A stretch of DNA of 64,000 bases from a virus. This document shows positions 10,005 through 59,445 of this stretch, piece after piece. Positions within the stretch are counted from its first letter, which is position 1; each line of letters starts with the position of its first letter. Location of the stretch: the IMG/VR virus record IMGVR_UViG_3300035698_020096, positions 16,174 through 80,173 of that record, one strand, 5' to 3'. Below the pieces are notes generated by a model. It made no database searches. It was given only the letters and a program-made list of their open reading frames with translations, and was not told the origin of the DNA. The translations under genes were made by a program, and so were the position numbers.

Positions 10005-10017
10005 TTCTATACTTAAT
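9996..10017. terminator. Hairpin between convergent genes
   Basis: ATTAAGTA and TACTTAAT form an 8-bp AT-only stem around a 6-nt loop, spanning the stop codons of the converging 8973 and 10453 genes. It is plausible as a bidirectional terminator but thermodynamically weak. Confidence 0.3.
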
Positions 10018-10453
10018 CCTTAAATCTATTAGATAGATAACTAGCCGCCCTTTTCTTATTTAGTAAAGTCCCCTTCAACATAAGGATATGTTTACAAGGC
10101 CCTCCTTTATTCCTACTTTTCCATTGATAGTTTCCACAAGAACACTGGTAGGGTTCAGTAGATATTTGATACTCATTGCCCTTGGGACTAATACAAAGAA
10201 ATCCATTAGGTATAGGGGCAATAAAATAACCTAGAGTAATCATTTCCCCATACATAAGAATATAAAACATATTCTCAGTGGTCTCCCATAGATGATTACT
10301 AATGTCGATAATTCTTTTTACCCCTGAATTATCCTTCCATACTAAATAAGGTGTATTATTCTCTATCTTTATTTCAACAGTGGATTTCTTATCTAACCTC
10401 ATTTCTTCTGTAAGGATAGATTTAAGTAAGAGATATTCAAATGTAAGATTCAT
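10013..10453 (-). CDS. SWIM zinc-finger protein
   Basis: A 146-residue protein whose C-terminal region carries Cys104-x-Cys106-x13-Cys120-x-His122 (CSCGNYQWKSRNKGGPCKH), the pattern of the SWIM domain, a zinc-binding module known from bacterial helicase-associated proteins, transposases and recombination-associated proteins, where it binds DNA or protein. The N-terminal 100 residues are a mixed alpha/beta region without a motif I recognise. It is one of few minus-strand genes inside the structural block, convergent with the fibre-like gene and divergent from the protease gene, so it is probably expressed separately. A regulatory or DNA-binding role is possible; nothing shows a virion role. 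Confidence 0.65.
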   Translation of the reverse strand: MNLTFEYLLLKSILTEEMRLDKKSTVEIKIENNTPYLVWKDNSGVKRIIDISNHLWETTENMFYILMYGEMITLGYFIAPIPNGFLCISPKGNEYQISTEPYQCSCGNYQWKSRNKGGPCKHILMLKGTLLNKKRAASYLSNRFKD

Positions 10454-26901: not shown

Positions 26902-26905
26902 ATAT

Positions 26906-28825: not shown

Positions 28826-28828
28826 AAT

Positions 28829-29299
28829 ATGAAATTTAAACCCCTAATAGTAATTCATGAATCCTTATATTCATATGAAGAAGTAGCTCCTTTATTTCAA
28901 TCATCTACACATAAAGGTAGATATCATGCATTCATTAAATGTAACGGAGTAGTTCTATATATAACCCCTTCTAATAAGAAAGCAGAAGCAGCTTATGAAT
29001 CTTCCTTTAATGGAGAGGATGTATGTGATTCAGTAGACCCCTTTGCTTATCATATATGTCTAGAATCACCCGAAGGTTCTAATCCTCATGCTTCTTCACA
29101 TATAGGATATACAGAATCTCAATATTATTCTCTAGCTTGGTTAATAGCTAGAACTAAAGTTAATGTAGATAGAATAGTAGGTCATAAAGATATAGATACT
29201 AGAAAGCAAAGTATTGACCCTAGAAATTTAGATTTAAGTAGAGTTAAGTTAGATGTAAATAAGTTTAAACCCACTTCTTATCTTGAATTAGGAATATAA
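28829..29299 (+). CDS. N-acetylmuramoyl-L-alanine amidase (amidase_2 / PGRP family)
   Basis: A 156-residue single-domain amidase of the T7-lysozyme type. IVIHES places the first zinc His at position 10, GRYHAFI supplies the paired strand of the fold, and GHKDIDTRKQSIDPR near the C-terminus gives the second His and the conserved Asp-Pro. The length equals a minimal amidase_2 domain and there is no signal peptide or wall-binding domain. It cleaves the bond between MurNAc and the peptide stem, the same bond as the amidase_3 domain two genes upstream but by a different fold. It begins 3 bp after the previous stop, so it is co-translated with the virion lysins. It could be a virion enzyme or the endolysin; no holin-like gene is adjacent. 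Confidence 0.82.
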   Translation: MKFKPLIVIHESLYSYEEVAPLFQSSTHKGRYHAFIKCNGVVLYITPSNKKAEAAYESSFNGEDVCDSVDPFAYHICLESPEGSNPHASSHIGYTESQYYSLAWLIARTKVNVDRIVGHKDIDTRKQSIDPRNLDLSRVKLDVNKFKPTSYLELGI

Positions 29300-29316
29300 A
29301 TAGAAAGAATAAATAT

Positions 29317-30564
29317 ATGAGTAAGCGAGAAAAGTACGAGAAGTTATTAAATAATGTAAATGTAGTAGCTGCATTACATATGATTAATCAAGTTGAATCT
29401 AATTATGGTTCAGATTCATACGGAGTTATATTTGGGGGTAGTACCCCTCCATTAGGTACAGACCATCCTAGAATAAGCGTACCTAGGAATGATGGTACAG
29501 GGAGAACTAGTAATGCTGCGGGTAGATATCAATTCATGTCTTTCACCTGGGATGAAGTTAATCAAAATATTGGACCTTTAGATTTCTCCAATCCTAGGCA
29601 TCAAGATATAGCTGCTATTGAACGTATAGAGGTAAGAGGAGTATTAGATGCTGTTATTAAAGGAGATATAGAATTCGCTCTTACAGGAGGACATCCTGCT
29701 TCTATGGGAGTAGATGCTTGTTACTTATATCCTTCTGGGATGGCTTGTGAATGGGCTGGTTTAGCCCCTAGTAGGTATGGTCAAGGTGACGCTACTATAG
29801 CTCAGAATATAGCTGACTTCGAGAAGTTTAAAGGAGTACCTTTACCTAAAGGAGGGGGTACTCCCACTGATACAAGCAGTAATGTACCTACTACACCTGG
29901 AGATGGTAATCAAACAGCTATGCAAGCTTTCTCTGCATCAGTAAAGTATGGGGCCTCATCTATCGTTGGATTCTTAGGAGATACTAAACGAGGTATTCTC
30001 TGTCATCAGATAAGGTTATGTAAAGTAGAGGCAGGAAATCCACCTACTTCTGTTATGAAAGTAATGGGAGGTGAAGGTAACTTAACAGGCTTCACTCCTG
30101 GTATGAATAGTACAGCTACAAATGCTAATTCAGGAGGTGCTCTTAAAGCTGGAGAGTTTACACCTAGACCGGGAGCTTATATAAGTTCTGCACCGGGGGT
30201 ACCAGTAAACTCTCCTTTTGGCATGAGAGGGGGACGCATGCACAATGGAGTGGACCAAGCTGCGCCGGAAGGTACTCCCTTACTAGCCTCAGGGGATGGG
30301 ACAGTAACTGTAACTGGATATGAACCAGGTTATGGAAACCATGTTTTTATTAAACACTCCGATGGGCTTACTACTACCTATAACCATATTTTAGATGGAG
30401 GTACTAAAGTAAAGGCAGGTCAAAAAGTAAAACAAGGAGATGTTATTGCTCTAATGGGTACTACAGGTAGAAGTTCAGGACCTCATATTCACTTTGAATT
30501 CTGGAGAGGAGACCCGGATGCTGGTACTCCCATTGACCCTCAAACTATTATTCCCGACCTCTAA
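29317..30564 (+). CDS. GH104-like muramidase/transglycosylase fused to M23 endopeptidase
   Basis: A 415-residue bifunctional lysin. Residues about 10-175 follow the lambda R/GH104 pattern: a helix carrying Glu27 (MINQVESN), a GG-x-T loop with HPR at 50-52, S-x-A-A-G-R-Y-Q-F at 65-73, T-W, then Q-D-x-A-A. This cleaves the glycan. A Gly/Thr/Ala linker and a middle region of unknown role follow. Residues about 285-410 are a LytM/M23 zinc peptidase: S-P-F-G-M-R-G, His309-N-G-V-Asp313, a Y-N-H-I strand and His390-I-His392, all ligands present. It would cut peptide cross-links. It is the last of four consecutive wall-active genes; its stop overlaps the next start (TAATG). No signal peptide is present, which fits delivery in the virion. 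Confidence 0.85.
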   Translation: MSKREKYEKLLNNVNVVAALHMINQVESNYGSDSYGVIFGGSTPPLGTDHPRISVPRNDGTGRTSNAAGRYQFMSFTWDEVNQNIGPLDFSNPRHQDIAAIERIEVRGVLDAVIKGDIEFALTGGHPASMGVDACYLYPSGMACEWAGLAPSRYGQGDATIAQNIADFEKFKGVPLPKGGGTPTDTSSNVPTTPGDGNQTAMQAFSASVKYGASSIVGFLGDTKRGILCHQIRLCKVEAGNPPTSVMKVMGGEGNLTGFTPGMNSTATNANSGGALKAGEFTPRPGAYISSAPGVPVNSPFGMRGGRMHNGVDQAAPEGTPLLASGDGTVTVTGYEPGYGNHVFIKHSDGLTTTYNHILDGGTKVKAGQKVKQGDVIALMGTTGRSSGPHIHFEFWRGDPDAGTPIDPQTIIPDL

Positions 30565-37719: not shown

Positions 37720-38072
37720 ATTCTATAGCTCCCCCTAATATAGGTGCATCCGGTATAGCTTTTCTTTTATATATAAAGAACTTAACAGTTAAGGATGTAG
37801 GTAAATCGCTTTTAATTAGAGTAATTAGTAAGACTTCTACTCCTTCATTATGTGGAGATAAAGGAATAGAAGTTATTTGGGAGAAATCTATCCCTATAAA
37901 TGATGACCAAATGCTAGTTCTTATAGATAAGAAACTACATAAAGGTATCTATACCATTTCCATCAGGTATAAAAACTCAAGTGTTAATAGAACTATTACC
38001 AAATATGATTCATCTAGATTCACATTAGGTCTACCTTATTCTTCTTATCCTCCTTTTGAACTTCTTCTATAG
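37704..38072 (+). CDS. Small beta-rich hypothetical protein
   Basis: A 122-residue protein with an immunoglobulin-like strand pattern: GIAFLLYIKNLTV, SLLIRVISKT, MLVLIDKKL and GIYTISIRYK. It overlaps the previous gene by 16 bp and is followed after 4 bp by the gp25-like gene. Ig-like modules are common as surface decorations on phage baseplates and tails; that role is inferred only from the strand pattern. Confidence 0.5.
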   Translation: MARRLDSIAPPNIGASGIAFLLYIKNLTVKDVGKSLLIRVISKTSTPSLCGDKGIEVIWEKSIPINDDQMLVLIDKKLHKGIYTISIRYKNSSVNRTITKYDSSRFTLGLPYSSYPPFELLL

Positions 38073-38076
38073 AAAT

Positions 38077-38532
38077 ATGATTGATTTAATAATACATAAT
38101 GGAGACCTAGCTCTTCAGCAATCAGACCTTACTGATGGTACTCAAGGAGAGACTAATTATCATAAAGACCTGGCTTTAAAAGGGAGAGAAGCTGTTCTAA
38201 TGAACCTTCTAAGAAGAGCAGTAGAAACCCCTATTACCCATATAGGTAGATATGTAGTAGATAACAAAGGGGTTAGGAAGTTAGACCTTAGCTATGGAAA
38301 TGGTATTTATTTGGAGTTATCTGAACCAGTTACATTAGACTGGGTGAAAAGAGCTGAGGACCATATAAGAAGTGCTGTGTCCTTTCTTCCTACTGACATT
38401 AAGATTACCTCTCTTAATATCAGCCCAGATGGGTTTTATTCAGCTCGTATAGACCTTAGATATCGAATTGATGGAGGGCAAGAAACTACTCTTACATCTA
38501 GAGTTTCATTGGAGAATATAAATGCGAGTTAG
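38077..38532 (+). CDS. Baseplate wedge protein, gp25-like
   Basis: A protein of 151 residues with the gp25/gpW signature: an early dl-x-l-x-x-G-D-L-A segment (IIHNGDLALQQ), a helix with LMNLLRRAVETP and H-I-G-R-Y, and a C-terminal strand pair after a helix that starts ITLDWVKRAEDHIRSA-like sequence (VTLDWVKRAEDHIRSA). gp25 proteins initiate sheath assembly and are the most conserved wedge components in contractile systems. A frame extends upstream to TTG 38056, but ATG 38077, 4 bp after the previous stop, is the natural start. The gene overlaps the J-like gene by 11 bp, the order seen in P2, Mu and T6SS clusters. Confidence 0.82.
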   Translation: MIDLIIHNGDLALQQSDLTDGTQGETNYHKDLALKGREAVLMNLLRRAVETPITHIGRYVVDNKGVRKLDLSYGNGIYLELSEPVTLDWVKRAEDHIRSAVSFLPTDIKITSLNISPDGFYSARIDLRYRIDGGQETTLTSRVSLENINAS

Positions 38533-39583
38533 AACAGTTGACGAAGTAGTAGAAGATATAAGAGGAGAGCTTATTAGATTAAGGTCGGAAATGGCTCCTT
38601 TTCTTAAATTCAGTAATCTCTATGCTTTATTTAGAGCTGTATCCTCAGTAATTACCGAACAAGATGCAAAGATACAAAACTTATCTAATGAAGCCTTTAT
38701 CTATACAGCTACCAAAGACTTCCTGGACCGTAAAGCAATGGACTACGGAATCCTTAGATTAGATGGTACTAAAGCCGTAGGTTCTATATTAATCAAGGGA
38801 CCTAGAACTACTATTCCTAAAGGTCTTATATTAGATACTCCTAATCAATATCTTCAATATGAAACTATTGAATCTACTACTAGTTTTAATGATGTAGAAA
38901 TACCAATTAGAATAATGAGTTTAGCTAGAACCTCCCAAGCTAATCTCCCTTCTGGGACTAGATTATATACCTCCTTATTCCCTTCTCATTCCTTTACGGT
39001 AGGAGCATATAGAGATGGAAGCAGTGTTGCTCAAAGGGGGTTTACAGGTGGAAGTGAACTAGAGACAGATGATGAATTCAGAGATAGAATTCTATCTATT
39101 ATTAAGGGACCTAATACAGGTACTATTTCTGCTATAAGAAATAGTTTAAAGACCTTACCCTTTTTAGAACGAGTGTATATAGAAGAACATTCTCCTGTAT
39201 CTGGTTACTTCACAGTAGCTACTGATATTACAGATTTAGAGAATATAAATCAGATGAAGGAACTTATTAATCAAATAAAACCTATAGGAATCTCTTATAA
39301 GATAAGAACACTTTCTTCTCAAATCGTAGATATAAATATAAGACTTAAACTTAATTCTTTAAGTCAAACTTCTACTATAGATAGTCAAATAAAGACTAAT
39401 CTAAGAACACTTAATAGAGTCTTTATACCTAATCAATCCCTAACTAAAGATATGATATCAGGAATAGTTCTTCAAGTCCCAGGAGTTCAAGGATTAGATA
39501 TATTAGCTCCTATATATGATGTAACTCCTTCTAATGGTAATTTATTACAAATAGACAAAGTGGATATAAACTTTTACACCTAA
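38522..39583 (+). CDS. Baseplate J-like wedge protein (gp6/gpJ family)
   Basis: A 353-residue protein with the Baseplate_J layout. The helical start has FSNLYALFRAVSSVI, then DFLDRKAMDYGILR and the domain core with A-V-G-S-I-L-I-K-G and IPKGLIL. The conserved G-S-E-L-E-T-D-D-E-F-R-D-R segment follows near 180-192, then P-N-T-G-T. The C-terminal part includes a repeated ferredoxin-like unit (IVDINIRLKLN). J-like proteins form the ring of wedges holding the baseplate together. It lies directly after the gp25-like gene as in P2 and Mu. Confidence 0.85.
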   Translation: MRVRTVDEVVEDIRGELIRLRSEMAPFLKFSNLYALFRAVSSVITEQDAKIQNLSNEAFIYTATKDFLDRKAMDYGILRLDGTKAVGSILIKGPRTTIPKGLILDTPNQYLQYETIESTTSFNDVEIPIRIMSLARTSQANLPSGTRLYTSLFPSHSFTVGAYRDGSSVAQRGFTGGSELETDDEFRDRILSIIKGPNTGTISAIRNSLKTLPFLERVYIEEHSPVSGYFTVATDITDLENINQMKELINQIKPIGISYKIRTLSSQIVDINIRLKLNSLSQTSTIDSQIKTNLRTLNRVFIPNQSLTKDMISGIVLQVPGVQGLDILAPIYDVTPSNGNLLQIDKVDINFYT

Positions 39584-39589
39584 TTAATC

Positions 39590-42500
39590 ATGCTCAAAGA
39601 TACTTGTGCCTCAAGCTTAGTGACTCTAAGTCAACTGAATATAAATACATTTAACTCTGAATACAAACTGGATATTACTGTAGGGCGAGAATATGGACCT
39701 CTTAAGTTAATATCAGGCCATGTTAATATACCCATTTATTTCTCCACTAACCAGGTATTTCATTCTAGTTGCTTTACAGTAGGTTGCTTTGATTCATCAG
39801 GTATATGGAGCACTAAGCCGGTTGATTATAAAGAGGAGTTATCTAATTGTTTAATAGACGGATATGAAACCTGCTTTGAAGAGTATGAAGCTGTATGTTC
39901 TGTTCAAGTACCTTATAGCGAGAATGTGGTTTATGAGCCGGATGTATTCGATTTAGGTATATACCAACTACATAACGGGTATAGAACTGAATATAGGTCA
40001 GGGCTATGCTATGAAGCTCCCCTAATAGAAACTCCATTTCACCCTCTAGAAGAACTGTTTGATATAGATATATTTCCCACTACTTCCTCTATTTGTAATA
40101 AGTTTACTCTTAATAAAGACTATAACTTAAGTATTGCTACTTACACTGCGGATGTATTTGAGGAAGGAGTTTATACTAATTGTGATTATCATTTTGAAAG
40201 GGGTACAGAATTAGTAGTTTGTCTTAATGGTCCTTACGAACCAGGGATATATGAGGATTGCACTTATAATAAAACCTTTCATGTTTCATCCTACAATCCA
40301 TCAAAATGTCTAGATGAATGTGTTATATCTCCTTTAGAACCAATAGCTGCTTATAGTTCTAGTTCCTCTGGGTTAACTTTAGACCAAGCGTACAACTGTG
40401 ATGCTTCTTTTCCTTCCTCTAAAACTTATCTAACAGCTGAAGGAAAGAATCTATTAATACTGGAAGATAACTGTATTAATTCCTATTGTCAAGAAGATGG
40501 GTTATATGAGAAGAGACGTTTCTACTACGACCTAGATATGAAGCCTTATGTAGAAGAGGTGTTTGAGGAAGGTATATATGTTGATAAATGTCTGACTAGT
40601 TCTCATCAAATAGAAACAATATTTAATCCTAACTTTTGCTGTTTGACTAGAGATGATCTATATCCATTAGCTTATCTATCTGCTCAATTAAATGAGTTTC
40701 TACAGGCCCATAATCTTACTCCTAATTCAGAGTATTACCCCTATACCACTACGGAAAGGAAAGAGATTATAGATTGTAGTTCTTGCTACACACCCCTAGT
40801 CAAATCTATAGAAGGAGTAGATAGATTAACTAGATTTAATGGATATCAAGAAGAAGTGTTCTTTAATGGGTTACCCACCCCTTTAGGGGCTCTAGTAGTA
40901 GATATAGGTTATATCTACCCAGGTACTTATGAATTTGTATTACTTAAGAAAGATGTGCCTATTAACAATGATGGTACTTTTTCAAGTGAAGTATTAGCCC
41001 CCAGTGGTATTAAAGCAGTAAGACTTAAAGCTATAACTCGTAACAGAGAAGTAGTATTAGGTATGAGCTTTGGAGATAATCCTCTTTCTCCACTTTTAAT
41101 CAAAACGTATAGTGAGAATACTCCTTTATCCTTTCCTACTAATCATGTAATTTTAGAAGACCTAGCTATTACCCTTACTCTTGTAAGTCTTTCAGGTTAT
41201 AAGTCTACCCTAGATAATTGTCCTACTAATAATATAGGAATGTATTATCTAGAACCTTATATGAAAGCCCTGTTAGAAGATAATCTAACTAAACTTTCCA
41301 CCCTTATAAATAGAGATATAAATAGCCCTATTTATAACGCAATACCATCTAAGTTATATCCTGATAGTACTTATGAATCCTTATATCAGCGGAAGCAATT
41401 AGACAAGTCTTGTTATGTAGAAGGGATATATAAAGCTGAATGTGCACTTATATATGATGACCCCACAATGATAGGGGATGATTTTCTATGTCTAACTGAA
41501 TGCTTTTCTAAAGAAGAGGATATAACCCCTATTCTCCCACTAGATACAGATTTACGCTCTATTGCTTGGTTGATTATTTCTTATACCACATATCTAGATG
41601 TATTTCCTAAATCAGTTCTAGAGGAAGAATATGATACAGCCGCTACTAGATTAGGAGAATATCTAATGAGTAGATTAACCCCTTTCTTAATTGATGAAGG
41701 TAATGAGACCTCTCATACTTCTACTAATATAATGGCTTGTTTAGCCTTTATTAAACTATATGAACTTACAGCTAGTCCTACTTATCTTAATAAAGCTGCT
41801 GATTTATATATAAGCATTAATGATTATTTATATTCTTTTCTAGATAGATCCTTTATTCATGAAGCTTCCACTCAAGTATTCTCTACAGAGGCAACTATTT
41901 ATGGTCTTATATTCTCTTTATGGACTAATCAAGAAGATAAAGTAGAATCTCTACTTACACTCATGAAACTAAGAAGGAAATCTTTTAGAGATGTATATAG
42001 ATTAGCTATTACTAATGAAGAAGGATTGATAACTGATTTAGAAGGAACCCCTATTCTTATTCATCAGACTGATAGCTATGAGTTAATAAAGGAAGGATAC
42101 TTTGACCTTCTAATTCCCTTCTATACTGCACCTCAAGAGGCGGGTTACAGTCTAGCTGATACAGTTAGACTCATGATTCTATCGGATTATGTATTAAAAG
42201 CTACTGAAGCTAAAGGATTTAATATAGGCTTCTCTAATCATATAGATATATATCAAGAAGAAGTCAGAAGTAATCCTAAGTTACAAACATCTACTTGGTT
42301 CGCCTCATGCCTAACCGATATATTTATTAATCATTCTCTTATTACTCCTTCAAGTCTTAAAGATTTACAGACTCTTATATTCAATAGAGAATATGTTACT
42401 GACCAATTGAAAAAGATGATTCCGACTGGATTCGGGTGGTTTCATAAGAATGCTCTAGGTAAACAATCTAATCTAGGTAGAATGCTAAGAAGTTTTTCCT

Positions 42501-43255
42501 ATGGTCTCTCTAGTTTCTACCCTGCTCTCAATAGTATAGCTATGAGCTTTTCTCTTACAGGTAGTAAGCACTTCAACGTAGATAAATGGGAAAAAGAGCT
42601 AGAGATGTCTCGCTGGGATGGAGAATCTCTTTCTACTTATAAAGCTAGAGTTAGAGATTATCTATTAAATAAGACTATAGACAGAATAGGTATTCAAAAC
42701 CTATTTAATTTATACGATATTGATTTAATAAACATATCAGATATTACTCTTCAATCCTTTGATTCCTATACTCAACCCCAAAGTTCTTTTAACTCAGTAA
42801 TTAGAGATAGTAATCTTCTAGTAGCCAGTGAAGTTAGAGATAACTTTATAGCTAATGTACCTACAGTATTTATTACTATTAATAAGCCCGTATTAGATGT
42901 AATAGGTAATGAAGTATCTAGATTAACTCCTGTAGGAGTAATAGTTAAATTCATTGAAAAGGTAGATTATTTATCTTGCTCTAAACCTATTGATATAAAT
43001 AGAAAAGTTTCTTCCCTAGAAATAGCTGTACCTTCCTCAGCTCCAGAAGTATTAGTAGAACCCTTATGCTGTGCGGAGGAAGCCTTATGCGGTCCTATTA
43101 CATATAGAGTTAGACTACAGCACGTATCTGATTCTCCCTTATATTTATATAAGGAAGGAGATTCTTTCTATGCATCTGAATCTAGCCAGATGGGAAATCC
43201 ACTTACTATGATTCCATCTTATACAGCTAACAAATTATTTCTTTATAAACCATGA
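39590..43255 (+). CDS. Large Cys-rich baseplate protein with EEGxYxxC repeats and a helical toroid-like domain
   Basis: A 1221-residue protein in the slot after J where P2 encodes gpI and T4 gp7-type proteins act. Residues 1-620 are beta-rich with about thirty cysteines and at least six copies of a short motif of the form [VY]xE[EDP]G[IVL]Y-x-x-C (VFEEGVYTNC, YEPGIYEDC, VFEEGIYVDKC, CYVEGIYKAEC and two weaker ones). Residues about 640-930 are paired helices (NIMACLAFIKLYELT, ATIYGLIFSLW) resembling the alpha/alpha toroid of some glycan-active enzymes, though no catalytic residues can be assigned. Residues about 990-1060 form a helical wedge-like end (GFGWFHKNALGKQ, DKWEKELEMSRWDG). Its stop overlaps the next start as ATGA. 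The precise role is unknown. Confidence 0.58.
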   Translation: MLKDTCASSLVTLSQLNINTFNSEYKLDITVGREYGPLKLISGHVNIPIYFSTNQVFHSSCFTVGCFDSSGIWSTKPVDYKEELSNCLIDGYETCFEEYEAVCSVQVPYSENVVYEPDVFDLGIYQLHNGYRTEYRSGLCYEAPLIETPFHPLEELFDIDIFPTTSSICNKFTLNKDYNLSIATYTADVFEEGVYTNCDYHFERGTELVVCLNGPYEPGIYEDCTYNKTFHVSSYNPSKCLDECVISPLEPIAAYSSSSSGLTLDQAYNCDASFPSSKTYLTAEGKNLLILEDNCINSYCQEDGLYEKRRFYYDLDMKPYVEEVFEEGIYVDKCLTSSHQIETIFNPNFCCLTRDDLYPLAYLSAQLNEFLQAHNLTPNSEYYPYTTTERKEIIDCSSCYTPLVKSIEGVDRLTRFNGYQEEVFFNGLPTPLGALVVDIGYIYPGTYEFVLLKKDVPINNDGTFSSEVLAPSGIKAVRLKAITRNREVVLGMSFGDNPLSPLLIKTYSENTPLSFPTNHVILEDLAITLTLVSLSGYKSTLDNCPTNNIGMYYLEPYMKALLEDNLTKLSTLINRDINSPIYNAIPSKLYPDSTYESLYQRKQLDKSCYVEGIYKAECALIYDDPTMIGDDFLCLTECFSKEEDITPILPLDTDLRSIAWLIISYTTYLDVFPKSVLEEEYDTAATRLGEYLMSRLTPFLIDEGNETSHTSTNIMACLAFIKLYELTASPTYLNKAADLYISINDYLYSFLDRSFIHEASTQVFSTEATIYGLIFSLWTNQEDKVESLLTLMKLRRKSFRDVYRLAITNEEGLITDLEGTPILIHQTDSYELIKEGYFDLLIPFYTAPQEAGYSLADTVRLMILSDYVLKATEAKGFNIGFSNHIDIYQEEVRSNPKLQTSTWFASCLTDIFINHSLITPSSLKDLQTLIFNREYVTDQLKKMIPTGFGWFHKNALGKQSNLGRMLRSFSYGLSSFYPALNSIAMSFSLTGSKHFNVDKWEKELEMSRWDGESLSTYKARVRDYLLNKTIDRIGIQNLFNLYDIDLINISDITLQSFDSYTQPQSSFNSVIRDSNLLVASEVRDNFIANVPTVFITINKPVLDVIGNEVSRLTPVGVIVKFIEKVDYLSCSKPIDINRKVSSLEIAVPSSAPEVLVEPLCCAEEALCGPITYRVRLQHVSDSPLYLYKEGDSFYASESSQMGNPLTMIPSYTANKLFLYKP

Positions 43256-44367
43256 GTATTCCTAAACTACTAATAGTAGGAGCAGGACCTAGAGGTATAG
43301 GTCTTGCCCTTAGAGCTATTCATAGTGGAATAGAAACCACTATAGTAGACCCCTTCCCTTTAAAGACTTGGACTCCTCCTAATATGCTTATAGATATGAG
43401 TATGAGAAGTCCGATAGGATTTGATTTAGTTACCTTTTGTTCTGACCTTAAAGAATATAGTCTTAGTTATTATCTAGGTTCTTATAATGATATACAAGAA
43501 CAGAAGGAAATAGAGGTTCAGCATCAACCCATAAGTAGAGATATATTTGTTAAATACTTAAATCATATATGGGATTATGTGGGACCAAGAGTTAATTATA
43601 TAGATAAACCTATTACTCAAATAGGGAAGGATTATGTAATAGCAGGGGATAGAAAGATAGTTACTGATAACATAGCTATTGCTCTAGGTTCTCCTTCTAA
43701 ACTTAATGTTCCTAATTACGCTAGACCCTTTGTTTCCTCAGATAATTTATTAGGAACTAAAGAAATAATACTAAATAAACCACTGGGACTAACTATAGCC
43801 GTAATAGGTTCAGGTCAGAGTTCAGCTGAACATGTGGATTACTTAACTCCTGATAATAAGGTTATATGGGTAACCAATAAGGAAACTAAAGTACACCTCT
43901 ACCCGGTTCCCCCTTATTCTATTTGGGGACCAAAGTCAGCTTTAGGAGATTATTTTAGTAGATTAAAGGAAAGTGATAAAAAGGCTGCTTTAAAATATAT
44001 GAAAGAAGTAGCTGGGTGGACTCCTTCTATTACCCCCTCTATAGCTAAATCTCTTGAGGAGAAATCTCACTTAATCACTAAGGTAATGCCTCAAGATATA
44101 AATACCTATATATCAAAAGTAGATAAGGTTCTCCTATGTATTGGATTTAACACCTCTTTAGATAACATCCCCTTTTCTATTCCTATTACTAAGGAAATTG
44201 TTAAATCAGACTATCCTGAATTAAATAACTTTAAGTCTCCTGAAGGTATATATTTTACTGGGGACCTAGCTAAGTTTTATGATGGACCTAGACAAGGTTC
44301 CCTTATTTCTATTGGAATTACATCTAAGACAATAGTAGAAGACATTCTATCAAATCATTATGGATAA
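43252..44367 (+). CDS. FAD/NADPH-dependent N-monooxygenase-like oxidoreductase
   Basis: A 371-residue flavoprotein unexpected in a baseplate operon. The first Rossmann motif is VGAGPRGIGLALRA (Gly10-x-Gly12-x-x-Gly15), the FAD site of the lysine/ornithine N-hydroxylase class. The second is VIGSGQSSAEHVDYL (about 184-198), the NADPH site typical of that class. VDKVLLCIGFN at about 290-300 stands for the D-x3-[LF]-ATGY signature in degenerate form, and a C-terminal FAD-contact segment has TGDLAKFYDG. Family members hydroxylate amines in siderophore synthesis; the substrate here is unknown. At 371 residues it is shorter than IucD/PvdA types (about 430). It overlaps both neighbours (4 and 8 bp), so it is an integral operon member rather than a recent insertion. 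It could be a metabolic gene or a domesticated baseplate component. Confidence 0.78.
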   Translation: MSIPKLLIVGAGPRGIGLALRAIHSGIETTIVDPFPLKTWTPPNMLIDMSMRSPIGFDLVTFCSDLKEYSLSYYLGSYNDIQEQKEIEVQHQPISRDIFVKYLNHIWDYVGPRVNYIDKPITQIGKDYVIAGDRKIVTDNIAIALGSPSKLNVPNYARPFVSSDNLLGTKEIILNKPLGLTIAVIGSGQSSAEHVDYLTPDNKVIWVTNKETKVHLYPVPPYSIWGPKSALGDYFSRLKESDKKAALKYMKEVAGWTPSITPSIAKSLEEKSHLITKVMPQDINTYISKVDKVLLCIGFNTSLDNIPFSIPITKEIVKSDYPELNNFKSPEGIYFTGDLAKFYDGPRQGSLISIGITSKTIVEDILSNHYG

Positions 44368-44929
44368 ATATACTTTTGTAAGTTACGAAGCTGAAACTTA
44401 TCAATCCAAACAGTATAGAGCTTTACTGTTAGCTAATCAAACCTTCTACTTAGGATTATCTAAAACTAGTCCTTGGGTTGACCCTGTTAATCAATTCATT
44501 AGCGATGAGAACCCCCCTAAACCTCCTATGGCTAATCTCTATATCTTACCGGAGCTAGTGATTATGAAGAGAATTCAAGAGGTTAAGTTAGCTAGAGAGA
44601 CCTCTTGTGGTGAACATATTCTGATGGGTAAGACTTGGAACTTATACGAACCTTTTAATATTCAGTTTCTAGAAGGTAAGCCAGTCCCAGACGTAACTCA
44701 TTTATATCTTAAGATATTACTTAAACCTAACGATTTTACTACAGATGTAATAAGGGTTCTCTCATTACACAGTCATATATCTACTGTTAATAATTATCAG
44801 GAAGAAGTTATTCCTTCTAGTCTCATCAGTAGTCAAGGAATAATTCATTGGGTATCTTATTCCACTCCACTCAAGCGGAGAGACATCACTAACATATATT
44901 CAGAGATTCGTATCTTATTGGAGATTTAA
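44360..44929 (+). CDS. Baseplate protein with a gp8-like N-terminal motif
   Basis: A 189-residue protein overlapping the flavoprotein gene by 8 bp. After an opening helix, FYLGLSKTSPWVDP followed by PPKPP resembles the segment F-I-T-F-G-R-S-E-P-W with nearby P-P of T4 gp8 and similar wedge proteins. The remainder alternates strands (THLYLKILLKPNDF, VIRVLSLHSHI). It precedes the very large DUF4815-like gene by 1 bp. The gp8 resemblance is short and may reflect a common structural loop rather than orthology. Confidence 0.5.
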   Translation: MDKYTFVSYEAETYQSKQYRALLLANQTFYLGLSKTSPWVDPVNQFISDENPPKPPMANLYILPELVIMKRIQEVKLARETSCGEHILMGKTWNLYEPFNIQFLEGKPVPDVTHLYLKILLKPNDFTTDVIRVLSLHSHISTVNNYQEEVIPSSLISSQGIIHWVSYSTPLKRRDITNIYSEIRILLEI

Positions 44930-44930
44930 T

Positions 44931-47900
44931 ATGGAGCTATATTCCTACAAAGATAATCCTTTATATAGGGATAGATACGAACGAAAGAAGAGATGGTTAA
45001 AGGTATTACCTCAACCTGGTAGACCTCTTCAAACTTCAGAGTTAATAGAAATTCAATCATTACTAGCTGACCATCAAAAGCAAGTATTAAACATCATCTA
45101 TAAATCAGGGACTATACTCTCAGGTCTAGCTGTATTTATTAATGAAGTAAATGAAGATAATCTTCAAGTAACGGTCATTGAAGGTCAGTTGTATATAGAA
45201 GGTTTAGTAGTAGACATAGATACTTCTAATCAGATTATTCCTATTACGGGTAATCATTCCATTGGAGTTCTAGTTGAGGAGTTTATTATTGATGAAAACG
45301 ACGACCCCTCTCTAAGGTCTGGCGGCAATGCTTATGGCTTGGAAGGGTCAGCTAGATTAGTATGGGAAGCCTCTATCAGTATTAATAATCCTAATGCTAT
45401 AGAAATAGCTACGGTCGAAGAAGGAGTAGTTATCCAACCCTATGCTAATAGACAAAGTAAGATTGAGGATCAATTAGTTACTTATCTAGCAGATAAAGAT
45501 GGGTCTTTTGTAATAAGAGGCTTAACTGTTGAACATATAGATACTATTGTTCCTAATATTATTACTCCTTTAGCAAATACTAGAGACCAACAATTAGCTG
45601 TAAGGGAACAGACTGTTAATGATTTACAAGCTTCTCTTATAGAAATGGAGGCCCGCATTGTCAGTCTTAGACAGAAGCTTACTAGAGATACCCAAGACTT
45701 AAATAATAATCCTAGTCCTACTAACCTAAGTAAAGTTCAAGCTACTATCGCTGAGATTGAATCTCTTACTACTAATCAAGAGTTAATTAAGGAACAACTA
45801 AATGCTGAGAAGTTGGGCTTAGCTGAATTAACTCTTTCCACTCGCTCTAAGCTTAACCAACAGGTAACTGAGCATTTAAGCGTTACTCCAGGATTAGCTT
45901 ATATATCAGGTCAGAGGGTGTCTTTATCTATTAGCCGTACTATTAATATTCCTAAATCACTTGAAGAGAAATCAGTGGATGGGGTTAAGTTTACCTATAG
46001 GTCCTCTATAACTAGTTTTAATTCTTCATTAATTCTAGGAGTACCTATAGTTCAAGATAGTAACATTACTCTTAACTTTAGAGGATTACCTATAGACAAT
46101 ATCTCCATAGTCTTCACCATTACTAATAATGAAATATCAGTAGAGGACATATTACTTAAACTGATTAGTTTTCTTAATAACCCTGCTTCTTCTATAACCT
46201 CTTCCAATATATCTATTACTTCTATCCCCCTTTCTAGTAATTTACTCTCTCTCTTAAGTAATTACCTAGACTTCTCTATTGGAATAAATAATACTTTGAT
46301 TATTAATCCAAAAGTAACTTTATCTACAGAGGTTCAAGTTAATGTAGCTACTAGTAATAACTCTCTAATCTTCTGGGATGTAAGAACTGGTATAGTTAAG
46401 ACATCTATAGTTAGTAATAATTATCAACTAGATAATAAAGATATAACTAGTATTAATAACTTTATTGCTGACCTTAAGCAAACTAGTTGGCAGATGTCTA
46501 GGAATCCTAATACTGACATAGATTATTTAGGAGAGGATTCTATATTCAGAATTCTTAATGTTATCTCGGGCACCATAGTTTATAGAGAAGGGATTGATTA
46601 TAGATTAGAAGGACAATCCTCTATTATTTGGTTGAATAACTCAAGGCCAATAGGGGGTTCTACTTATTATGTAGATTATATATATACAGATGTACTTATA
46701 GAAGATACTGATTTTACCACTAATAAGTCAACAGGAGTAATTAGATTTACTGATAGAACCCCTGCCCCTGGCTATACCTTTAGTCTTAATTATAAGTATT
46801 CAATATCTAAAACTATTTATATCTACCTAGATAAGAATTCAAGTATTTCTTATAGTGATAATTTAATAAATGAGGAATCTTATTTACTATTAGCTACTGC
46901 TGTTCTATCAGCCCAATCTGTATTTATTACTCAAGTAAATAATAGAGCTTTATCTCCTACTGAACTTTACTCTTTAAACCGAGATATTAAAGAGAATCTA
47001 GCTCTTTTGGCTCAGTTAGAATTAGACCTTGATACATATCAGGATATAGCTGAAGAGAATATAGATAATCCAATAGGTAGTTTCTCTGATGCTTTAGATA
47101 ATCTATCTCGTATTAATTTAGATGAATCAACCTTTAGTATTGCTCCAGCTAGTCGTTCTATTACTCCTTTAATTAGAAGTAAAGCTTTTAAGGTCAAGTA
47201 TATATCGGGAGGTGTACCTCATTATCCTTCTCAACCTTCTAACCATAGTTCTCCTAATTATGTAACCTTACCCTTTTCTACTACTGAATTAATAAGGCAA
47301 ACCAGAGCTACTAGATATAGACCTATAAGTCCTACTCCTAGTTCAAACTATAGAGGGCGCATGTATTTAGATTCAGACTTTCATTCCTTTACTGAATCCA
47401 GATTATATCCAGGAGAAGTAATTACTACTTCTATTTCATCTAATATAAGTAAGAGTTTGAAATATAATACTAGATTTATATACTGCCCTATATATGAAGC
47501 TTTAACTTATTCTCTTGTAGATAATTACTATATAAGTGATAAAGAATTATCCACTCTTTCTACTGATAATAAGTTCCTAGGAAGTCTATCCTTCTTTATT
47601 AAAGTAGAAGGTTTAAAACCTAATGAAGATAATCTAAACTTATATCTTGATAATAAGAAGATAGATATTAGTTATATAGATTCTCTTAGTGGTACGGTTA
47701 AAGGAGTATTAGGATTAAGGTCTAGTGCTACTGGTTCTATTCAAGTGAAAGTACAGTTACTAGACCTAACCTGCGGGACTCACTTATTAGAGTTAAGAGG
47801 ACTTAGTTCTTATTCCAGTTGTAGCTTTGTAGTAGCTGATATACCTTTAATTAATTACTTATCTAATCTATGCGAATCTACTCTTTCATATAATCAAACA

Positions 47901-48992
47901 CCTAGAGATGTAGCTTTACCTTATAGTGCTTTAAATCAACATAGATTCTCCTCTATTATTCAACAATTTATTCCTAATAGAGAAGCTCTTATTACTGGCA
48001 TATCTATAAGGTTCAAGCAAGTAGGAGAAGGGTCTATTACTCTTTCAATTAGAGAAGAAGGGGAGTACGGATTACCTAGTCAAGATATTCTCGTACAGGG
48101 GCAAACAGATACTTATTGGTATGATGAATTCAGTACTCAAAGTACTATCTTTGATTTAGACTATCCTTTATATGTAAGTCCTAATAAGAAATACTTTATT
48201 GATATATCTTCAAATAGTGAAGACTTTCATATATTCACAGCACAAGTAGGCGAAAGAGACCTTTTAGATAGAAGTCGTATAGGTTCTCAGCTGTTAAGTG
48301 CTGGGGGTCTATTAGTGTCTAAAGATGGTTTATCTGTTAGTAACTTTCAGGATGAAGACTTAAGTTATGTAGTTCAAGGAGCTTTCTTTCAGTCTTCTCA
48401 AATGATAACTATAGAGTTAGGTAAGTATGGAATACTTAACAGCTTCTCTGATATAAGCCATTTCTCTTACTTCTCTAAGGATATAAAGCCTATTGGTACT
48501 GACATTAAATATCAATATAGAACTTCTAATAATACACAATGGATTGATTTTAAAGTAGGCACCGTTATCAAGTTAGGTAGTTTAGTTTCCCATGTAGAGG
48601 TTAGGGCTCTTCTTACTAATAGTAGTAATACTTATTTAAGTCCCTTATTAGATACAGCTTCCAATTATATAGTCCTTAGTTCTCCTTCTAATAATAGTAA
48701 GGTAACCTATAAAACTATTGATTATCCTATTATATTCGAGAACTTGAGAGTTTCTATCCAAGCCTTTGAGCCTCCTGGTAGTATTACTAGATGCTATATA
48801 GAAGTGAATAATTCTCTAGTAGAGTTAAGAAAAGATTCTTCTATTCCCCTACAGGATTATCCTTCTATTCATACTATTACCTTTTCAATATCCAATCTAA
48901 GCCTTACTAGGATGAAAGTAGTAATAACTCAATATAGTGATTCTCCTAATCTAATTCCCTTCTATAGAAACTTTAAGTCTTATGTATGGTAA
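44931..48992 (+). CDS. Very large baseplate/tail periphery protein (DUF4815-like)
   Basis: A 1353-residue protein. Its start (YKDNPLYRDRYERKKRWLKV, then PGRPLQTSELIEIQSLL) has the pattern of DUF4815 proteins of myoviruses: D-x-P-x-Y, a variable stretch, P-G-x-x-L-Q-x-x-E-L-x-x-x-Q. A coiled-coil hairpin lies at about 220-300 and is followed by TPGLAYISGQRVSLS, also found in the next gene. The rest consists of repeated beta domains, with a possible carbohydrate-binding jelly-roll near 1010-1110. These proteins sit at the baseplate rim and carry fibres. The 10-bp overlap with the next gene indicates coupled synthesis. Function is inferred from family and position. Confidence 0.65.
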   Translation: MELYSYKDNPLYRDRYERKKRWLKVLPQPGRPLQTSELIEIQSLLADHQKQVLNIIYKSGTILSGLAVFINEVNEDNLQVTVIEGQLYIEGLVVDIDTSNQIIPITGNHSIGVLVEEFIIDENDDPSLRSGGNAYGLEGSARLVWEASISINNPNAIEIATVEEGVVIQPYANRQSKIEDQLVTYLADKDGSFVIRGLTVEHIDTIVPNIITPLANTRDQQLAVREQTVNDLQASLIEMEARIVSLRQKLTRDTQDLNNNPSPTNLSKVQATIAEIESLTTNQELIKEQLNAEKLGLAELTLSTRSKLNQQVTEHLSVTPGLAYISGQRVSLSISRTINIPKSLEEKSVDGVKFTYRSSITSFNSSLILGVPIVQDSNITLNFRGLPIDNISIVFTITNNEISVEDILLKLISFLNNPASSITSSNISITSIPLSSNLLSLLSNYLDFSIGINNTLIINPKVTLSTEVQVNVATSNNSLIFWDVRTGIVKTSIVSNNYQLDNKDITSINNFIADLKQTSWQMSRNPNTDIDYLGEDSIFRILNVISGTIVYREGIDYRLEGQSSIIWLNNSRPIGGSTYYVDYIYTDVLIEDTDFTTNKSTGVIRFTDRTPAPGYTFSLNYKYSISKTIYIYLDKNSSISYSDNLINEESYLLLATAVLSAQSVFITQVNNRALSPTELYSLNRDIKENLALLAQLELDLDTYQDIAEENIDNPIGSFSDALDNLSRINLDESTFSIAPASRSITPLIRSKAFKVKYISGGVPHYPSQPSNHSSPNYVTLPFSTTELIRQTRATRYRPISPTPSSNYRGRMYLDSDFHSFTESRLYPGEVITTSISSNISKSLKYNTRFIYCPIYEALTYSLVDNYYISDKELSTLSTDNKFLGSLSFFIKVEGLKPNEDNLNLYLDNKKIDISYIDSLSGTVKGVLGLRSSATGSIQVKVQLLDLTCGTHLLELRGLSSYSSCSFVVADIPLINYLSNLCESTLSYNQTPRDVALPYSALNQHRFSSIIQQFIPNREALITGISIRFKQVGEGSITLSIREEGEYGLPSQDILVQGQTDTYWYDEFSTQSTIFDLDYPLYVSPNKKYFIDISSNSEDFHIFTAQVGERDLLDRSRIGSQLLSAGGLLVSKDGLSVSNFQDEDLSYVVQGAFFQSSQMITIELGKYGILNSFSDISHFSYFSKDIKPIGTDIKYQYRTSNNTQWIDFKVGTVIKLGSLVSHVEVRALLTNSSNTYLSPLLDTASNYIVLSSPSNNSKVTYKTIDYPIIFENLRVSIQAFEPPGSITRCYIEVNNSLVELRKDSSIPLQDYPSIHTITFSISNLSLTRMKVVITQYSDSPNLIPFYRNFKSYVW

Positions 48993-51405
48993 ACTCTTAC
49001 TTCCTAAAACATCAGTACCTCTAGATATATCAATCCTTAATGATGTTCAGTCTATATATTTAAGTAATCTAAGTAGAAATACTAACTATCTCCTATCTTT
49101 CTTTCAAGTAGTTAATGGTTTATCTGTAAGTATTATTAAGAAGAAACCATTAACTATATTTGTTAGTGCGGGTAGAGTATATGCCCATATAGAAGGGAGA
49201 GACTATGTTTTAGATATACCGTCTAGAACAATAGTTTTAAAGGAAGGATTAGATAGTTATTTAATAGGAGTATCCATTGAATTATATGAAGAAGATAACT
49301 TTAAAAACCCTCTTCAAGGTGGAAATGTTCTAGGTTCATTAGGAGCTAAAAGGTTAGTTTATAAAACCCAATTAGTTATCAATGAAGATTCTTTTACTAT
49401 TGGGCTTATAACTAAAGATTTAGAAGTCAGACATATTAATAGTAAGGGAAATATAACTCTTCATCGCAATATTAGTAATGCTTACATTCCTTATCTAGAT
49501 ATATATAAAAAGGATATAGGTAATTATGTATCTAGAGGATTCTCTATTAGTGAAACTGAAGATTCATATATTATCAGTCCAGGGGTAGCTTATATATCAG
49601 GACAAAGAATAAACATACCTAGAGTCACTATTCTAGATAAACCCTTAGATAATAAATCGTTTCATATAGGAGTAAATACTAATGGTGAAATAGCTATAAG
49701 CTCCTCATCAGATACATATGAATACCCCGAGGGCTCCTCAGTAAGTACTGAGGAGGGAGAAGATATATATGTGATTAGAGAGGAAGATGAGATTCTAACT
49801 AATATTTATATTCATGAGGGAATTATAACAACTCCTCCCTTGTTTCTACCACTTGTAATGAATCTATATAAAAATAGTAATAGAGAGATAGAAGAATGTC
49901 CTGTGTTCATGCCTTCTAATTCTGATATTAGGAATATTCAACAGGAGCTATTAGGTATAGAAAGAAGAACCGGGGAGGTAATAAACAGATTGAATCTAAT
50001 CAAAGGTACAAGTAATTTAAACGTATCTAAGTATTTAGTTATTAGCTCTTTTGATATTACTAACTCTGATATAAACTATCCTGGATATTCAGCTTATACA
50101 GATACTACTGGTTTAAACTCCACTACTTCTTTATTAAGTATTGATATCCCTTTTCTAGATGCTAGAGATAACTTATATCCTTACTATTTAGCAGGGGAGC
50201 TTATAACTGCTTATCCTATATGGTATGAACTATATAATATAGAAACCCCTTCTGCTTCTAGTTATATAAATGCTTCTTTATCTCCTACACATATAATCTT
50301 ATTTGAACAATTGAAGTATTTATTTCTAGCAATTAATTCAGAAGGAGGAGTTTCTATAGATAAAGAAGGAAATATAGCTGATACTCCTTTATTAGGTAAT
50401 ACTACGGATAATAGAATATATACAGGTAGTCTAATAGCACTGGTTGGTCCTAAGCCTAATAAGCTCAATGTTAATAATGAAACCTACCGCCAGGGGTTAA
50501 ATCTATCTGTAGGTAGAGGAACTATATCCCAATTAATAAATTTATCTAATCCTATTCTTAGTAACAGAGTATATATCCCTATCACCTCTTCTTGCCTTCT
50601 TTTAGTAACAGGAGACTATTTAGGTAATCCAGATTTAACTAACTTAAAAGCCTGGGGGTACTCTCTTTCATCTACTAATTACATAGAGTTAAATAAACCC
50701 CTTAGTCTATCAGGTAAAGTTCATGTTCTACTTGTCACTACTTTAAATATCCCTATTACTAACAGTTTGAATATTGGAACTGAACCGTCTAGGACTTATA
50801 TGGGGAATAATAGTTGGGTATCTAATACTTACTATTTACCTATTAGATTCAATGAAATAAACTATAGACAAGTAGAGAATAAAGTTCCTCTTACTATCTC
50901 TAGTAATAATCAATTTAATGAGATACGTTTTAACTTCAAAGGGATAAAGAGTCTTAGTTACAGCTATCAATCAGGGTTACAGTCGGGTCCTACTTCAAAT
51001 CTTTATTTAAAGTTAAGTACATATACTCAATCAACTAATATCGAATTAAACTTAGCTAAAGGGGATTATATAGATGTATTAGGTTCATATATAGATTTAG
51101 GATATATAAATCAAACCTTTAATTGGATATCAGTTAACTACTTTATAGAGAAGCCTTATAGAGGTATTCAAGTATTTATAGATGCCGAGGTAATCCTATC
51201 TTTCTCTTCTAACTATGGTCAAGCTTGGACTCTTATTCCTAGATCTAATCTAGGGGAGTATTATATAGAAGATTTAAGTAATACTGTACCTTATGAAGGT
51301 GTAACCGATACTACCACTCTTATTCGTAATAACTTAAAGTTAAGAATACAATCCGATACATTAGATAAACCTATCAGTAATATTCAGATTAAATTAATAC
51401 AATGA
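48982..51405 (+). CDS. Baseplate/tail periphery protein, paralogue of the preceding gene
   Basis: An 807-residue protein sharing the early layout of the 1353-residue neighbour: an N-terminal helical segment, a strand module (LTIFVSAGRVYAHIEGRDYV), then ENNFKNP-like loop sequence with QGGNVLGSLGAKRLVYK where the neighbour has RSGGNAYGLEGSARLVWE, and SPGVAYISGQRINIP where the neighbour has TPGLAYISGQRVSLS. The pair arose by duplication and both are probably rim or fibre-attachment proteins. The C-terminal half is beta-rich and unrecognised. It overlaps neighbours at both ends. Confidence 0.62.
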   Translation: MYGKLLLPKTSVPLDISILNDVQSIYLSNLSRNTNYLLSFFQVVNGLSVSIIKKKPLTIFVSAGRVYAHIEGRDYVLDIPSRTIVLKEGLDSYLIGVSIELYEEDNFKNPLQGGNVLGSLGAKRLVYKTQLVINEDSFTIGLITKDLEVRHINSKGNITLHRNISNAYIPYLDIYKKDIGNYVSRGFSISETEDSYIISPGVAYISGQRINIPRVTILDKPLDNKSFHIGVNTNGEIAISSSSDTYEYPEGSSVSTEEGEDIYVIREEDEILTNIYIHEGIITTPPLFLPLVMNLYKNSNREIEECPVFMPSNSDIRNIQQELLGIERRTGEVINRLNLIKGTSNLNVSKYLVISSFDITNSDINYPGYSAYTDTTGLNSTTSLLSIDIPFLDARDNLYPYYLAGELITAYPIWYELYNIETPSASSYINASLSPTHIILFEQLKYLFLAINSEGGVSIDKEGNIADTPLLGNTTDNRIYTGSLIALVGPKPNKLNVNNETYRQGLNLSVGRGTISQLINLSNPILSNRVYIPITSSCLLLVTGDYLGNPDLTNLKAWGYSLSSTNYIELNKPLSLSGKVHVLLVTTLNIPITNSLNIGTEPSRTYMGNNSWVSNTYYLPIRFNEINYRQVENKVPLTISSNNQFNEIRFNFKGIKSLSYSYQSGLQSGPTSNLYLKLSTYTQSTNIELNLAKGDYIDVLGSYIDLGYINQTFNWISVNYFIEKPYRGIQVFIDAEVILSFSSNYGQAWTLIPRSNLGEYYIEDLSNTVPYEGVTDTTTLIRNNLKLRIQSDTLDKPISNIQIKLIQ

Positions 51406-51599
51406 AAGACCCTAGATTAAACATTCCCGGTGAGTATATAAAACATGGGGCTATTGCGTTCCCCCCTAAGAACAATATTAATAAAGAGCTAGAAGCCCTT
51501 AGAAAGGAGGTTGAGGAGAATAATAAAATAGTCAATCAACTATTACAACTCTTTCAACAACAACTTCAAACTTCTACTAAACTCCCCACTGAGGATTAA
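51402..51599 (+). CDS. Small coiled-coil protein
   Basis: A 65-residue protein overlapping the previous gene by 4 bp (ATGA). Residues 25-55 form a heptad-rich helix (INKELEALRKEVEENNKIVN, then Gln-rich), so it probably oligomerises. It ends inside the 3' end of the convergent minus-strand LAGLIDADG-like gene (57-bp overlap). It may be a small fibre-attachment or chaperone protein; nothing more specific can be said. Confidence 0.5.
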   Translation: MKDPRLNIPGEYIKHGAIAFPPKNNINKELEALRKEVEENNKIVNQLLQLFQQQLQTSTKLPTED

Positions 51600-52109
51600 T
51601 TCTTTATCCAGCAATTGAATACTTTCCTTTTTATATACCCTTAGTCTATTTATAGATTGAGGGTTATTTATTACTAGATTACATTCAATAAGAAACTCTC
51701 GTTTAAGATAATCACGAAGTCCTTGTAGTACTAGTAATTTAGAACTACTTACCTGTAGATAATATTCTCTATGATTAGCTTGATTCCATCCTTTTGTGTA
51801 TATAACTTTACCCTTACACTCCAAGGAACCCGATATGAATCCCCTAATGAATTCTCTATTATCAACTCTATTGAATAGGAGATAATCTATATCTTCTCTC
51901 TTACCTTTAATATGTATTTCATACATCTCTCGTTTATAACCACTTAATAGCCAAGTAGTTAGATTAAAAACTTTACATAGTTCATAGACTTTATCCACTA
52001 TATCTATATCGGAAGTAGTAACTATATACCCTTGTTTCTTCTTTTTATGTCTAAGTAATAGAACAGCAAGGAGCCAGCCTTGATTAAATGATTGACATAC
52101 TAAACTCAT
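51543..52109 (-). CDS. Degenerate LAGLIDADG-family protein
   Basis: A 188-residue minus-strand protein with two half-repeats of a LAGLIDADG homing endonuclease. The second motif is clear (EFIRGFISGSLECKGKV, about 86-102), followed by a strand-rich segment and YYLQVSSSKLLVLQGLRDYL, as in the family. The first motif (GWLLAVLLLRHKKKKQGYIV, 11-30) has lost its catalytic acidic residue: Arg-His stands where Asp-Gly is expected, and in the second motif Ser-Leu-Glu replaces the usual Asp-Gly. It is therefore probably cleavage-defective, or a maturase or DNA-binding derivative. It is free-standing between the baseplate and fibre genes and transcribed against them, typical of mobile homing genes in phage genomes. 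Confidence 0.6.
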   Translation of the reverse strand: MSLVCQSFNQGWLLAVLLLRHKKKKQGYIVTTSDIDIVDKVYELCKVFNLTTWLLSGYKREMYEIHIKGKREDIDYLLFNRVDNREFIRGFISGSLECKGKVIYTKGWNQANHREYYLQVSSSKLLVLQGLRDYLKREFLIECNLVINNPQSINRLRVYKKESIQLLDKELILSGEFSRSLKLLLKEL

Positions 52110-59031: not shown

Positions 59032-59445
59032 ATGAATGAAGATTTGTTTACATTCCTTCAAAAGATAAATCCATTAAAAGAAAGTTTGCCTCTTAGATCA
59101 GGGGGGTCTCTTGTAGATAATAATAAGAATTACTTATTAAAGATGTTACCTGAGCTACCAGACTATAAAGTTTATTTATTATCGATTCTTCTTCAACATC
59201 AAAATATAAGAGTCTTTACTAAAGATGAATTAGTAACAGTAGCTAGTTTAAGACTTGAACTCCTTAATGATTATAGTAATGCCACAGTACCTACAGTTAT
59301 AACTAATGATGACCCTTTATTTGATACTGGTTCTAATCGAGTTAATAGATTGATAAGTAACAAAGGTCTAGCTTCATTACAAATAAATTACATGAATGCT
59401 CGTAAGATTAAATCAGTTAAAGGATTTATAGAGGAAATTATATGA
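59032..59445 (+). CDS. Hypothetical helical protein coupled to a large tail protein
   Basis: A protein of 137 residues from ATG 59032; an upstream TTG at 59008 lies inside the terminator hairpin and is unlikely. It is mostly helical (LFTFLQKINPLKESL; LLKMLPELPDYKVYLLSIL), unrecognised, and overlaps the next gene as ATGA, implying coupled synthesis. It may be a dedicated chaperone or assembly partner of the following large protein. Confidence 0.5.
   Translation: MNEDLFTFLQKINPLKESLPLRSGGSLVDNNKNYLLKMLPELPDYKVYLLSILLQHQNIRVFTKDELVTVASLRLELLNDYSNATVPTVITNDDPLFDTGSNRVNRLISNKGLASLQINYMNARKIKSVKGFIEEII

Follow-up and report, generated by a model that had tools for sequence, protein, structure and literature searches.

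An N-monooxygenase-like flavoprotein as a probable member of the baseplate module in a group of contractile-tailed phages

Described relatives and the locus

A described orthologue of the flavoprotein discussed here is gp106 of the Microcystis phage Ma-LMM01 (33% identity). Its gene directly precedes those of gp107, a gp105-type wedge protein, and gp108, a DUF4815 protein. With 337 aa gp106 is shorter than the protein presented below, and it is annotated as 'putative lysine/ornithine N-monooxygenase', a metabolic enzyme. A tail role for gp106 is not proposed in the literature searched, and the Ma-LMM01 transcriptome paper does not name it. Annotated phages carrying the flavoprotein are confined to the Microcystis phages (Ma-LMM01 and the MaMV series) and a Microcoleus phage, with 33–35% identity; the Microcoleus phage has the order flavoprotein, wedge, DUF4815 as in LMM01. 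All 20 members of the flavoprotein family match phrog_29209, which is listed with 'unknown function'.

The N-hydroxylating monooxygenases (NMOs) KtzI, PvdA, SidA, IucD, DesB/DfoA and FbsI have a two-Rossmann FAD/NADPH fold, the motifs GxGPxx and GxGQ and the PF13434 domain in common with the phage family. The phage proteins differ from them by a Phe in place of the substrate Lys, by the absence of the DDSPFxN-type loop and of the C-terminal HGxxD motif, and by being shorter, linked to the baseplate and, as far as the scans reach, restricted to phages. For the neighbouring genes the described counterpart is the SPO1/Twort/A511-type baseplate module, in which homologous J, wedge and DUF4815 genes stand in the same order. 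This module, however, has no flavoprotein gene, and its homologues of the protein encoded upstream are longer and nearly free of Cys.

The window, i.e. the whole stretch of 64,000 nucleotides analyzed here, lies in a virus record of 80,173 bases, throughout which no second copy of the flavoprotein was found. The ORF at 43252–44367 (plus strand, ATG start, 371 aa) encodes an NMO-like FAD/NADP(H) flavoprotein of the phrog_29209 family. It overlaps ORF 39590–43255 by 4 bp (ATGA) and ORF 44360–44929 by 8 bp, in agreement with an earlier note on this DNA, which had regarded both neighbours as baseplate genes. For the downstream gene this assignment holds. Its product is a BW3TFN (PF25691)/gp105-type wedge protein according to Pfam, and its profile matches 'Gp105' in PDB entry 6hhk and 'Baseplate protein' in 9euf; on these matches it is a true baseplate protein. 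The upstream gene (39590–43255) encodes a large tail protein of 1221 aa to which no annotated family could be assigned and which yields a weak alpha-mannanase match. It does follow a Baseplate_J gene, and in related phages, too, a homologue is encoded between J and the flavoprotein.

All genes of this cluster are on the plus strand. Further upstream are the Baseplate_J-like wedge protein (38522–39583, Pfam) and a putative gp25-like wedge protein (38056–38532; weak Pfam match below the cut-off). Downstream of the wedge gene follow a DUF4815 baseplate/fibre-network protein (44931–48992), a homologue of the DUF4815/ORF65 protein of 9euf and related baseplate entries whose profile matches the 9euf 'DUF4815 domain-containing protein', and a second DUF4815 protein (48982–51405, Pfam). 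Since GC and GC3 of the flavoprotein gene (33.9% and 20.7%) resemble those of the neighbouring genes (30.7–34.9% and 18–30%), there is no sign of a recent import.

Several other features of the window are recorded here. The hub region at 24835–30564 (plus strand) comprises four consecutive ORFs with peptidoglycan- or polysaccharide-acting domains, namely Phage_base_V (weak) with Amidase_3, VanY with Beta-lactamase2 and Polysacc_deac_1 in one protein, Amidase_2, and Peptidase_M23; the Microcoleus phage has a comparable set. An antisense ORF after the DUF4815 genes (51543–52109, minus strand) is possibly a homing endonuclease, with a weak LAGLIDADG_3 match below the cut-off. A 146-aa SWIM zinc-finger protein (10013–10453, minus strand) is encoded within the head genes on the opposite strand. 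A reading frame of at least 2045 aa (1–6135, minus strand) runs off the left end, on the strand opposite to the tail cluster, and an ORF of 1147 aa (59442–62885, plus strand) contains two near-copies of a stretch of about 90 residues (EADAKCVASVKRIYNLLRRLTL...).

Comparison with N-hydroxylating monooxygenases

From the letters alone the earlier note had described a two-Rossmann FAD/NADPH protein of N-monooxygenase type with the signature GSGQSSAE. This description was borne out by the motifs, by the profile search it had suggested and by the predicted fold. Pfam PF13434 (Lys_Orn_oxgnase) matches the window protein with an E value of 1.1e-10 and 41.7 bits (cut-off 21.3), and 19 of the 20 family members match it at E ≤ 0.01. 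The AlphaFold model of the window protein (pLDDT 92, pTM 0.90) has its closest PDB folds in the ornithine hydroxylases KtzI (TM 0.77) and PvdA (TM 0.73). The FAD-binding motif GAGPRG (residues 10–15, 43279–43296, plus strand) is retained, as GxGPR, by all aligned lineages but L051. The NADP(H)-binding motif GSGQSSAE (residues 186–193, 43807–43830, plus strand) is likewise retained outside L051, with an altered form in the L041/L055/L063/L073 group according to the alignment. Judged from sequence and model, the window protein is an FAD- and NADP(H)-binding protein that descends from the fold of N-hydroxylating (class B) monooxygenases.

The similarity is limited to one part of the molecule, because the family profile aligns with NMOs over its first ~209 positions only. 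In the SidA/PvdA ornithine/lysine hydroxylases the Lys of KDLVT binds the substrate carboxylate. The corresponding segment of the window protein is FDLV (residues 57–60, 43420–43431, plus strand), and in the alignment the phage members have Phe at this position, except for a Met in L051, whereas two plasmid NMOs have Lys. The NMO substrate region D(D/T)xxFxNxxFxPxY is replaced by a family-specific YPxPxYxxWxxKSAL (residues 217–231, 43900–43944, plus strand) and the C-terminal HGxxDxxLS by YDGPRQxSLIS (residues 343–353, 44278–44310, plus strand). A third family-specific motif, W(Q/G/T)PSITP, was identified in the alignment at residues 256–262 (44017–44037, plus strand). All three are near-invariant across the phage family and lie in the C-terminal half. 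The region of the D-x3-L-ATG motif reads DKVLLCIGF in the window and VLATGF in the LMM01 group, and the motif is lost in the L041 group and in L051.

These comparisons bear on an alternative, an auxiliary metabolic gene encoding an amino-acid or diamine N-hydroxylase for a siderophore or host metabolite and merely co-transcribed with the late genes. The intact cofactor motifs of the window protein fit such an enzyme, as do the PF13434 match and the match to the N-terminal NMO half, for which DfoA, DesB and FbsI (putrescine) are the best-matching hydroxylases. Moreover, the solved hydroxylase DfoA also has no substrate Lys (Ala in the alignment), so that the phage flavoproteins may hydroxylate amines. 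On the other hand, the C-terminal substrate half of NMOs is replaced, and IucA/IucC were not found in 19 phage records, several of which are fragments. Two profile scans over 84,980 species revealed no cellular relatives with phage-type motifs (ordinary NMOs would escape these scans); the nearest cellular proteins, SidA/IucD/PvdA monooxygenases located in plasmids, have about 25% identity. On this evidence the family is found only in phages. A siderophore-related function, which the earlier note had offered as its second option, loses ground with the missing IucA/IucC, the replaced substrate residues and the lack of cellular relatives, and siderophore metabolism is an unlikely function. We consider the metabolic gene as a whole improbable, also in view of the fixed gene position and the motif-less homologue described below.

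The conserved slot in divergent phages

When the window protein alone was used as query against viral contigs there were no matches, and profile scans were required; additional lineages were recovered from scans of IMG/VR. About 15 lineages can be distinguished by their divergence, mostly 29–42% identical to the window protein (the window, the LMM01 group, WqHQDG/L035, L004/L020, L005, L015, L017, L018, L019, L021, L022, L023, L041/L055/L063/L073, L051 and L083). HMM mapping places the flavoprotein gene immediately 5' of a gp105-type wedge gene in 14 of the 15. The spacing, where measured, ranges from –43 to +63 bp and is mostly an overlap. In nearly all of them the order is J, large tail protein, fibres (where present), flavoprotein, wedge and DUF4815. 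The upstream fibre genes vary between lineages; the pair of flavoprotein and wedge is constant. Hence, in the synteny check proposed earlier, all relatives that carry the flavoprotein and whose wedge gene could be seen have it in the same slot, except L021, where it is surrounded by fibre genes and not directly followed by a wedge gene. The synteny part of the refuting condition in the earlier note thus did not turn against its proposal. Because it is found again in about 15 divergent lineages, the arrangement in the window is far beyond chance.

NblA genes are present in LMM01, L022, L004 and L005, with a match below the cut-off in L015, which points to cyanobacterial hosts for part of the group; the window virus itself is putatively of cyanophage type. 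A psbA gene was not found in any of the 20 records searched.

The module also occurs without the flavoprotein. In 14 related clusters (L053, L064–L072 and L074–L077), of the SPO1/Twort type and others, J, wedge and DUF4815 genes stand without it, and in 13 of these records, several of them fragments, a search of the whole record revealed no copy elsewhere. In L053 (L053:3967–5611) the wedge gene directly follows J, and the large protein, the fibres and the flavoprotein are jointly missing. The LMM01-like loci L028–L034 contain J and the large protein with the wedge gene out of view and are therefore uninformative on absence.

The window flavoprotein is 29–42% identical to those of other lineages (23% to that of L051); in most lineages this is as much as, or more than, the 17–37% found for J, wedge and DUF4815. 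Its dN/dS of 0.15–0.38 is within the range of the neighbours or somewhat higher. Distances of the flavoprotein and of its neighbours correlate with Pearson coefficients of 0.66–0.79 for non-close pairs, the matrix entries not being independent. The close groups are concordant between the trees (the window with L015, L002 with L023, and the L041 group); congruence over the whole trees is partial, with deeper branches unresolved.

The large upstream protein varies in its Cys content. In the window it contains 32 Cys (2.6%), two of which, residues 61 and 66, are invariant or nearly so among homologues. Flavoprotein-bearing phages have about 1–3.8% Cys in this protein, whereas the longer homologues of SPO1/Twort-type relatives without flavoprotein have 0–0.1%. 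This would suit an oxidative thiol enzyme that forms disulfides in its Cys-rich neighbour, and a tail locked by disulfides is known from phage Milano (PMC10811340); in the parts of that paper available to us, terms for a redox enzyme did not occur. However, a conserved Cys pair is absent from the flavoprotein, the neighbour of the motif-less L051 protein still has 22 Cys, and the Cys correlation tracks phylogeny and may reflect a single event. A role in disulfide formation therefore seems very unlikely to us.

A homologue without cofactor motifs and the proposed function

The L051 homologue is an intact ORF of 379 aa with 23% identity to the window protein. Its FAD and NADP(H) motifs are gone, and so are the ATG-type and the C-terminal motif: VKVNPYTL replaces GxGPRG, GTSNKCLYY replaces GSGQxAxE and IGGVFQ replaces YDGPRQ. 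Its gene nevertheless lies between those of the large protein and the wedge protein, with gaps of 6 and 9 bp, and the predicted fold is that of the family, although the model was built with the family alignment, which favours this fold. The L051 branch measures 5.3 substitutions per site versus 1.24 for concatenated J, wedge and DUF4815, values from different methods that serve as a contrast only; like for like in FastTree, it is 2.09 versus 1.24 for its baseplate proteins. This is what a protein would look like that had lost catalytic constraint and kept a structural role. Since ORF, slot and predicted fold were kept while the motifs were lost, a structural role is suggested at least in L051, where a folded protein seems to be enough. 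The evidence from L051 is one sequence, a second scan having recovered the same contig alone.

It could be argued that the flavoprotein is a structural pseudoenzyme throughout, its fold being a tail building block and its cofactor motifs persisting only because FAD stabilizes the fold. L051, without both nucleotide-binding motifs, would agree with this, and so would the L041/L055/L063/L073 group, in which the ATG-type motif is lost and the NADP(H) and GPRQ motifs are altered. The other lineages, however, keep the NADP(H) motif together with YPxPxYxxW, PSITP and DGPRQ at 30–40% overall identity, and conservation of non-cofactor motifs at this level is characteristic of an active site. Thus, a pseudoenzyme in all lineages is unlikely, and the near-invariant cofactor and new active-site motifs suggest that most members have probably retained flavin chemistry.

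Taken together, the same slot in about 15 distant viruses and the retention of a motif-less copy in L051 make it probable that the function of the flavoprotein concerns the tail and not the metabolism of the host. We regard it, with reasonable though limited confidence, as a fixed member of the baseplate/fibre module in one broad group of contractile-tailed phages that works with the tail. Some observations count against a tail role. The conserved cofactor motifs equally fit an ordinary enzyme co-transcribed late, SPO1/Twort-type baseplates and L053 manage without the flavoprotein, and L021 has the gene without an adjoining wedge gene.

The most likely partner would be the gp105-type wedge protein encoded directly 3', to which the flavoprotein would bind. 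It could then remain in the particle as a flavin-bearing part of the baseplate. Alternatively it could act during assembly, where in most lineages the NADPH-reduced flavin would oxidize a group carried by one of the tail or fibre proteins. That it is a component of the virion is a serious possibility, to which we give somewhat less than an even chance; an assembly enzyme that is not packaged is less likely. Proteomic or structural evidence for the flavoprotein in virions was found for no phage, and the paper on MaMV-DH01 states that mass spectrometry is still needed (PMC9927357). We put forward only tentatively the more specific picture of a redox flavoprotein that is a regular, wedge-bound part of the baseplate, whose flavin senses or drives some process at infection or assembly and which in one lineage has become a structural pseudoenzyme. 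The proposal in the earlier note of a role in the particle, or of synthesis in step with it, instead of loose cargo is thus supported in part, by the fixed slot and by L051, for a role that may lie in the particle or in its assembly. As for the folate enzymes of T4 baseplates, which had been invoked there as a precedent, a review of the T4 tail (PMC3004832) does not mention them.

The gene and its enzyme-like annotation are already known (LMM01, PHROG 29209). The conserved baseplate linkage, the apparent restriction to phages and the motif-less homologue are, from sequence comparison, new relative to the literature searched, the Ma-LMM01 genome paper lying outside this search. What annotations of Microcystis phages treat as the gene of a metabolic enzyme hence becomes a probable tail gene, and since cultured phages are available (Ma-LMM01 and the MaMV series), this reading is directly testable. 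The L051 homologue represents a natural experiment by which structural and catalytic roles could be told apart. A cofactor-bearing baseplate protein, if true, would mean a possible redox or metabolic sensor in tails, or an oxidative modification step in their assembly.
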